Shown: positions 14,617 through 16,908 of the stretch, piece after piece | How positions within the stretch are numbered: position 1 is the first letter of the stretch | Layout: each line of letters opens with the position of its first letter | DNA from: Candidatus Altimarinota bacterium | GTDB taxonomy: Bacteria > Cyanobacteriota > Cyanobacteriia > Cyanobacteriales > Microcystaceae | Direction of reading: 5' to 3' | Assembly: GCA_012031035.1 (NCBI GenBank) | Contig: JAAUUT010000004.1 | Span: 1 to 64,000, forward strand | DNA: 64,000 nt | Made by a program: the position numbers and the translations under genes | Notes under the pieces: model-generated | Databases searched by the model: none | Told to the model about the DNA's origin: nothing | Seen by the model: the letters and a program-made list of their open reading frames with translations, nothing else

Positions 14617-15837
14617 GTGATTATCTACGAAAGCAAACTAGAAGGAACACAAAATCAGTACGAACGGCTCGACGAAGCTATTCGCACTGGTCGTTTTGTG
14701 CGTAATTCTATTATCCGCTCTTGGATGGATGGTCAAATTAAAAATCGCAATGATGCCTACGCCTATTGCAAAGTACTTTCGGATAATCCTGAGTTTCCTT
14801 GGGCTAACCAATTAAACTCAATGGCTAGACAAGCTCATGCTGAGAGAGCTTGGGCATCAATCGAGCGTTTTTATCGTAATTGCAAAGCTAAAATCCCTGG
14901 GAAAAAGGGTTTCCCAAAGTTTAAAAAATATCAAGTTAGAGACTCGATAGAGTATAAGACTAGCGGATGGAAACTTTCAGAAGACAGACGTTATCTAATT
15001 TTCACCGATGGGTTTTCTGCTGGTAGTTTTAAGCTTTGGGGTAGCCGAGACTTGCACTTCTACCTACTCAACCAAATCAAGAGGGTTCGGGTAGTTAGAA
15101 GACACGACGGTTATTCTGCTCAATTTTTAATCGACCATCAACGGGAGGAAAACAAAGAACTAACAGGCAGACAAATAGGATTAGACTTAGGTTTAAACCA
15201 TTTCTATACCGATAACTTTGGCGAGAAGGTAGACAATCCTAGATTCTTGAGAAAAGACGAGCGTAAAATTAAACGGCTACAACGTCGTCTATCTAAAACA
15301 GAAAAGAGAAGCAAGAATCGAACCAAAGCCAGAAATAAATTAGGTAGAGCGCATCTTAAGGGATCACGCAGACGTAACGACTGGGTATGTAAATTAGCCC
15401 AGCGCGTCATACAGTCTAACGATTTGGTAGCGATTGAGAACCTACGAGTGCGTAACATGGTAAAAAATCATTGTCTAGCCAAATCAATATCTGATGCTGC
15501 ATGGTATCGTTTTCGAGAATGGCTTGAATATTTTGGCGTGGTTTATGGCGTTCCCGTTATAGCAGTTAATCCAAGATATACCAGCCAGAATTGCTCTAAT
15601 TGCGGACAAAAAGTAGTTAAAACCTTAAGTACCAGAACTCACAGGTGTCCGCACTGTGGCTACATCGCAGATAGAGACGAAAACGCAGCGATTAATATTC
15701 TTAAAGAAGCCCTCAAACAATGGGCAAATACGATGGGGCGCATCGAATTTCAAGTCTCTGGAGAGATTCCCCTCTGCTTATCTTTGGAAACAAAGGCAAG
15801 TAAGGGAACTCAACGAAAGAGAAAACCTAAGAAGTGA
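14617..15837 (+). CDS. tnpB: IS605-family TnpB, RNA-guided nuclease
   Basis: 406 residues, normal length. The RuvC-like active site appears complete: Asp190 in GLDLGLNHFYTD, Glu274 in VAIENLRV and Asp354 in ADRDENAAINIL. The zinc finger lies between the last two: CSNCGQ and CPHCGY. The N-terminal helical part contains the usual RTGRFVRNSIIRSWMDG. GTG at 14617 is the best start, since it gives the family opening IIYESKLEGT; no good ribosome site is visible. No tnpA is nearby, so the element needs a transposase in trans. TnpB enzymes cut DNA next to a short TAM, guided by an RNA from the element 3' end. Confidence 0.9.
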   Translation: MIIYESKLEGTQNQYERLDEAIRTGRFVRNSIIRSWMDGQIKNRNDAYAYCKVLSDNPEFPWANQLNSMARQAHAERAWASIERFYRNCKAKIPGKKGFPKFKKYQVRDSIEYKTSGWKLSEDRRYLIFTDGFSAGSFKLWGSRDLHFYLLNQIKRVRVVRRHDGYSAQFLIDHQREENKELTGRQIGLDLGLNHFYTDNFGEKVDNPRFLRKDERKIKRLQRRLSKTEKRSKNRTKARNKLGRAHLKGSRRRNDWVCKLAQRVIQSNDLVAIENLRVRNMVKNHCLAKSISDAAWYRFREWLEYFGVVYGVPVIAVNPRYTSQNCSNCGQKVVKTLSTRTHRCPHCGYIADRDENAAINILKEALKQWANTMGRIEFQVSGEIPLCLSLETKASKGTQRKRKPKK

Positions 15838-16718: not shown

Positions 16719-16761
16719 TTTGATTAGCTCTGTAAAATTATTCGACTAAAAAAGTTTTACG

Positions 16762-16776
16762 GGTTGTCTTTTGACA
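16762..16776. promoter_or_regulatory. operator-like repeat, petE-proximal copy
   Basis: GGTTGTCTTTTGACA, with inverted arms TGTC/GACA around TTTT. It lies 44 bases upstream of the petE ATG. The identical 15-mer recurs at 16833-16847 near petJ. Two exact copies in one 190-base divergent promoter region point to a shared regulator; which one is not shown here. Confidence 0.65.
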
Positions 16777-16832
16777 GGAGTCCTTAAATTTGCTTCTAGT
16801 CCCTTAAATAATTTTACTACAGAAGTTCTACA

Positions 16833-16847
16833 GGTTGTCTTTTGACA
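16833..16847. promoter_or_regulatory. operator-like repeat, petJ-proximal copy
   Basis: Second exact copy of GGTTGTCTTTTGACA, here as a better palindrome, TTGTC-TTTT-GACAA. Its TTGACA also fits a -35 element for petJ, 62 bases ahead of the ATG. A protein bound here would therefore cover the petJ promoter. Confidence 0.65.
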
Positions 16848-16908
16848 AAATTTTTCCCGTTGCGCACGATAATTTACGGCTTTAATATACAACCGAGAGG
16901 AGAACTGA

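Follow-up and report, generated by a model that had tools for sequence, protein, structure and literature searches.

A polar 25-bp box, present twice between divergent petE and petJ genes, as the likely operator of a PetR-type copper switch in cyanobacteria

The genes for plastocyanin (petE) and cytochrome c6 (petJ) lie head to head in the stretch of cyanobacterial DNA analyzed here (64,000 nucleotides, called the window), and two identical copies of a 15-bp sequence, GGTTGTCTTTTGACA, are located between them. This raises the question of what the repeats are, and whether a single regulator could switch the two genes against each other from these sites. The plastocyanin/cytochrome c6 switch of Synechocystis sp. 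PCC 6803, PetRP, was reportedly described by Garcia-Canas et al. in 2021. In the accessible part of a commentary (PMC7896320), this switch is ascribed to the BlaI-type PetR and the BlaR1-type protease PetP, and how PetR activates petJ yet represses petE is called unknown. In our view, each repeat is likely to be a copy of a 25-bp polar operator at which PetR, the switch's BlaI-type regulator, binds.

An earlier note on this DNA placed the copies 44 bases before petE and 62 bases before petJ, and both distances hold by subtraction of the coordinates (Table 1). The inverted TGTC and GACA halves it described are confirmed in both copies as TGTC-N4-GACA, and in the petJ copy the symmetry continues to a perfect TTGTC-N4-GACAA. 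The exact GGTTGTCTTTTGACA is not spread over the genome: a search of the whole 6.05-Mb source assembly gave two copies, both in the petE–petJ intergenic region. One further match with one mismatch and 17 with two bring the total to 20. The reversed pattern gave 17 matches at up to two mismatches, so that at 15 bp the exact pair alone stands out. With three mismatches, searched in the window only, 4 matches were found against 2.26 expected, which is not unusual. At two to three mismatches the 15-mer alone showed no clear excess over the control, and a longer box was needed. An OrfB/IS605-type transposase gene (PF01385; window positions 14617-15837, plus strand) has its end 500 bases away from that of petE.

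Table 1. Positions of genes, repeats, boxes and presumed promoter elements in the window
Feature	Position	Strand	Basis
petE, plastocyanin, 126 aa	16338..16718	-	PF00127, E 1.1e-30
42-nt imperfect direct repeat, petE-proximal copy	16735..16776	+	83% identical to petJ-proximal copy
O2, petE-proximal 25-bp box, AAGTTTTACGGGTTGTCTTTTGACA, orientation as O1, 71 bp from O1	16752..16776	+
15-mer GGTTGTCTTTTGACA, petE copy	16762..16776	+	exact sequence match
42-nt imperfect direct repeat, petJ-proximal copy (box and presumed petE -10 region)	16806..16847	+
Presumed petE -10, TAAAAT, 6 nt after O1 in petE direction	16811..16816	-	TAnnnT at 5-6 nt in 28/46 petE promoters
O1, petJ-proximal 25-bp box, AAGTTCTACAGGTTGTCTTTTGACA, pointing toward petJ	16823..16847	+
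15-mer GGTTGTCTTTTGACA, petJ copy	16833..16847	+	exact sequence match
Presumed petJ -35, TTGACA, last six bases of O1	16842..16847	+	sequence; spacing to -10 conserved in 56/64 petJ promoters
Presumed petJ -10, CACGAT, 17 nt after O1	16865..16870	+	sequence; -10 spacing in other petJ promoters
petJ, cytochrome c6, 110 aa	16909..17241	+	PF13442 (cytochrome c domain), E 3.6e-17

The symmetric 15-mer, which had been taken for the element itself, lies at the core of a polar box of 25 bp, AAGTTTGACAGCTTGTCTTTTGACA. This longer conserved element emerged from the petE, petJ and petR upstream regions of other genomes of the order. It contains three alternating half-sites, GACA-N3-TGTC-N4-GACA, and carries AAGTT on one side only, which gives the box a direction. 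The pattern AAGTTTGACAGNTTGTCTTTTGACA with up to three mismatches is found in 120 of the 195 genomes of the order, and its reversed control in none (0/195). Across a sample of the phylum, the box occurs in 51 of 63 genomes of the order, in 4 of the 26 other genomes of the class and in 2 of the remaining 105 (reversed control 0/194). A matrix built from 72 distinct sites assigns at most 0.28 bits to every flanking position, which indicates that the element ends where the search pattern ends; as these sites were chosen by the three-mismatch pattern, part of the conservation inside the box is built in.

The source assembly contains one gene of the BlaI family (PF03965, E 7.5e-30), encoding a protein of 140 aa. 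The BlaI-type petR gene foreseen by the earlier note thus exists in this genome, and is located outside the window, on contig C55. Relatives of petR are present in 151 of the 195 genomes of the order at a cut-off of E 1e-15; when 12 of the genomes with no petR match were searched again, a weak BlaI-domain match appeared in one (G031). The box was found in 115 of the 151 genomes with petR versus 5 of the 44 that lack it (Fisher 5.7e-15, uncorrected for shared ancestry). Among the 36 petR-containing genomes that are box-less at up to three mismatches, the matrix reveals a weaker box upstream of petJ in at least 12. The five exceptions with a box and no petR are three genomes of one genus, a draft that is 71% complete and one genome (G033) with a single three-mismatch match. 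The petR gene adjoins boxed petJ or petE in several genomes. Near the petR of the source genome, no box was found at up to one core mismatch or by the matrix.

Matches to petJ were obtained in 186 and to petE in 128 of the 195 genomes. The 89 petJ and 73 petE upstream regions compared were taken from the listed matches, partly picked for a nearby petR or petE, and are not a random sample. Within the 89 petJ regions, a box precedes petJ in 65 of the 70 from genomes with both petR and petE, in none of the 9 with petR and no petE, in none of the 8 with neither gene and in one of the 2 with petE and no petR. In this set, petJ is thus boxed where the copper alternative exists. The box is absent at the examined petJ copy in five genomes that have both petR and petE. 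Two genomes (G182 and G192; loci L171, L030, L134 and L135) gave no petJ match; they have kept petR, a petE preceded by a reversed box, and a box before the gene of a small repeat protein. On the comparative evidence as a whole, the box appears to be a real, conserved operator, very probably that of the known PetR switch.

After petR, the source genome has a petP-like gene, recognized by its position and its HExxH motif. The gene is split by a frameshift (L009:1884-2739, G000 contig C55), and a Pfam search of both pieces gave no match. In a check for the HExxH motif, the frame after petR was uninterrupted in 29 of 30 loci, the split source genome being the thirtieth; it is likewise intact in Hydrococcus sp. 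Prado102, a close relative. The copper input of the switch may be broken in the source genome by this frameshift, or the sequence may be misassembled. If petP has really been lost, the switch should be locked as in copper starvation; it is equally likely that the assembly is in error.

The direction of the box differs between the two genes. Before petJ, it points toward the gene in all 65 boxed regions from genomes with petR and petE, and its median distance from the start codon is 73.5 nt (66 boxed petJ genes). A weak -10-like sequence, NANNAT, is located 17–18 nt after the TTGACA that ends the box in 56 of 64 petJ promoters. This conserved spacing supports the claim that the petJ copy of the repeat overlaps a -35-like element. 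The same motif at the same distance was also seen in 24 of 44 hand-listed boxed promoters other than those of petJ, which had not been used in finding the rule; the -10 rules themselves are post hoc, having been read off petJ and petE promoters. Full petE boxes occur in 22 of 72 genomes with petR, and all of them point away from petE; 16 of the 22 share their region with petJ, so that geometry alone would give this orientation. Upstream of the 56 petE genes that are not divergent with petJ, the half-box GACAAGCTGTCAAACTT with up to two mismatches points away from the gene in 25 cases and toward it in 4, with 5 ties and 22 regions that have no recognizable half-box (reversed control 0/56). The end of the half-box is followed after 5–6 nt by TAnnnT in 28 of 46 petE promoters. 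These spacings imply that the box ends in the -35 element at petJ and fills the space before the -10 element at petE. Polarity and offset, as read from the promoter sequences, could account for the opposite effects of PetR, activation at petJ and repression at petE.

We propose that in the absence of copper PetR would persist and occupy the box. On the petJ side, where the box ends in the -35 element of a promoter with a poor -10 element, PetR would activate transcription from a site that covers -35 and the bases just upstream. On the petE side, this box immediately precedes the -10 element, and PetR would block the polymerase. In the presence of copper, the protease PetP would destroy PetR and both effects would reverse, as is known for Synechocystis from the literature. 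In the source genome, O1 would serve both promoters; O2, 71 bp away in the presumed petE leader, would be an auxiliary operator for petE only.

The unequal roles assigned to O1 and O2 come from a comparison with related loci. Judged by PetE, Hydrococcus sp. Prado102 (94%) and H. rivularis (83%) are the closest named relatives, the source genome itself perhaps being left out. All four divergent petE–petJ regions of the source family (G000, G095, G112 and G129) contain two boxes in the same orientation. All 13 such regions from other families contain one full intergenic box, and in some single-box regions a second half-box overlaps the first. Of 23 named loci in which a CxxCH frame lies opposite petE, 15 have two boxes and 8 have one; 33 of 80 named loci were scanned, and 20 of the 33 were compared in detail together with the window. 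Twelve named twin regions were picked for having two boxes, hence only the -10 and spacing results are tests. In the 13 twin regions, O1 and O2 are spaced by 71, 71, 74, 72, 60, 73, 73, 72, 73, 80, 73, 72 and 72 bp. A -10 element for petJ follows O1 in 13 of 13 twin regions and O2 in none, and it follows the box in all eight single-box loci. The idea of a petJ promoter at O2 was dropped, as no -10 element is present downstream of O2 in the petJ direction. In the petE direction, TAnnnT is located 4–6 nt after O1 in the window and seven other twin regions, which places O2 inside the presumed petE leader. At 4–7 nt after O2 this motif was found in none of the 13 regions (Chlorogloea has one at 3 nt). 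Between the window and H. rivularis, O1 is identical at 23 of 25 positions and O2 at 21 of 25, and the surrounding stretches at 25/33, 27/34, 11/17 and 30/38; conservation favors O1, and O2 only mildly.

We conclude that O1 probably serves both promoters in the window and O2 petE alone, O2 being a candidate auxiliary petE operator. The earlier suggestion of one regulator for petE and petJ is supported by genome comparison, PetR being very likely that regulator. The two copies are not equivalent: the petJ -10 element follows the petJ-proximal box only, and this box alone may control both promoters.

The two copies might instead act separately, the petE-proximal box on petE only and the petJ-proximal box on petJ only, which we regard as possible though rather unlikely. 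Five Crocosphaera/Cyanothece-type regions have TATAAT on the petE side of O2, 12 nt from it, and four of them have no such element after O1, the fifth (SU3) having one 7 nt after it; in the window, AATAAT (16737-16742, minus strand) could be a weak petE -10 element by O2. The TAnnnT motifs behind O1 and their lack behind O2 argue for O1 as the petE operator, and divergent regions with a single box suggest that both promoters can be served from one site. It is a good deal less probable that the 42-nt repeat is a recent duplication with a functionless second copy, as its identity beyond the 25-bp box and the only mild excess in conservation of O2 over its surroundings would allow. A pair in the same orientation recurs in every divergent region of the source family and in most of the named loci, and the spacing is held at 71–74 bp in 11 of the 13 twin regions (60 and 80 bp in the others) although the flanks differ, which argues against this reading.

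Our reading of the repeats as PetR operators also has to be weighed against the box being read by another regulator, or by PetR together with a second factor, which seems improbable. The three boxed genomes of one genus (G127, G167 and G180; loci L357, L358 and L359), in which the box precedes a gene that resembles the DsbD_2 class by eye, have no detectable BlaI-family gene despite the box, and G019 likewise has a degenerate box between petE and petJ and no detectable BlaI gene. The co-occurrence of box and petR, the position of petR beside boxed petJ or petE in several genomes and the agreement of box targets in Synechocystis-type genomes with the printed PetRP regulon point to PetR. It is highly improbable that the repeat is no operator at all and just a promoter -35 element or a product of chance: TTGACA is the consensus -35 sequence and is probably used as such, but the reversed control of the 25-bp pattern is silent in all 195 genomes and none of the 17 petJ regions from petE-less genomes carries a box.

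Beyond the petE–petJ region, the box is tied to further genes related to copper and electron transfer, as the search of the genome and its relatives that the earlier note had proposed has shown. The source genome contains four boxes: O1, O2, one 46 nt before a DsrE-like gene (L130:2921-2945) and one 74 nt before a gene for a TonB-dependent receptor (L131:2763-2787). This receptor has AMIN domains, and divergent from it lies a gene for a 292-aa protein with no family above the cut-off; its assignment as MbnP was rejected, since Pfam gave only a sub-threshold match to DUF4382. All box matches were fetched in 18 genomes that were chosen and not sampled, and this gave 51 boxes. Seventeen of them, among which are the O2 boxes of three genomes (G000, G112 and G129), point toward petJ. 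Eight precede a small GLTT-repeat protein and seven TonB receptors; receptors outside the source genome were named by blastp cluster, and that of G065 was assigned separately (the ORF was hidden or the stretch ended). Three boxes each precede DsrE-like genes and DsbD_2/ferric-reductase-like genes, two TPR-like genes, two the gene of a 160-aa protein with no family above the cut-off, and one each an MbnP and an ExbB-like gene; Pfam was run on one representative of most boxed classes, and the names TPR, ExbB and, in G186, TonB are what we take these genes to be from their sequence. Three boxes lie, reversed, before petE only, as assigned from the upstream scan, and four have no class, one of them being reversed before cydA. 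Three of the 51 assignments were made by eye or from coordinates (G036 twice, G174 once), again because the ORF was hidden or the stretch ended. PepSY_TM genes are also among the box-associated classes. In G174, the box (L149:2078-2102) points away from the gene of cytochrome bd oxidase subunit I, 165 nt off, and cydA as an activated target was therefore dropped. By the polarity rule, cydA would be repressed if this box is in use; alternatively, the box may serve something else.

In two Synechocystis-type genomes, boxes precede petJ and a two-gene small-protein unit, and petE has a half-box. The unit starts with a small GLTT-repeat protein and may correspond to slr0601–slr0602. As far as the accessible text of PMC12382314 goes, the published PetRP regulon consists of petE, petJ and slr0601–slr0602, and the predicted box targets are in line with it. 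The boxes before TonB-receptor, MbnP, DsbD_2 and DsrE genes suggest a copper-starvation regulon. Whether the following picture as a whole is right we consider evenly balanced: PetR would read the polar box as an activator at -35 where it points toward a gene and as a block before -10 where it is reversed; it would run an entire copper-starvation regulon (TonB receptor, ExbB-like, MbnP, DsbD_2/ferric-reductase-like, PepSY_TM, DsrE and small repeat proteins); and the repression of petE would be tightened, possibly by looping, through a second box some seven helical turns away in genomes of the Hydrococcus and Microcystis types.

The operators of BlaI/MecI and CopY have the form TACA-N2-TGTA, and BlaI and CopY are known as repressors. 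The box resembles these operators in having inverted half-sites, presumably for a BlaI-family protein, its GACA-N3-TGTC being similar to their half-site pair. It differs from them in its three alternating half-sites and the one-sided AAGTT, which make it polar. With PetRP of Synechocystis, the system described here shares the target genes as an opposite pair, the regulator family and a petR gene beside the gene of a HExxH protein. In contrast to Synechocystis, the source genome has divergent petE and petJ genes that share two tandem boxes, its petR lies on another contig, and in its relatives the box also precedes copper-uptake-type genes. A copper-starvation operon of Bordetella pertussis, as presented in the accessible part of PMC13038864, encodes the TonB-dependent importer CrtA and the PepSY_TM protein CrpH. 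Genes for a TonB receptor and a PepSY_TM protein are raised there by copper starvation, and both classes follow the box here; the organism is unrelated.

The letters of the box gave no literature match on cyanobacteria, as judged by title. The logic of polarity and offset and the wider target set were not found in the literature searched, whose coverage did not extend to the operator description of Garcia-Canas et al. 2021. A link of PetR to TonB or copper uptake was likewise not found in that literature, judged mainly from the listed matches, and the available passages on PetR in PMC13421787 list no targets beyond petE and petJ. According to the accessible parts of PMC10278186 and PMC13183708, cyanobacterial engineering makes use of the petE and petJ promoters as parts controlled by copper. 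The box is very probably part of a known switch and not a new kind of system. A polar box placed at two promoter offsets would give a concrete, testable answer to the question of how one regulator activates petJ and represses petE.
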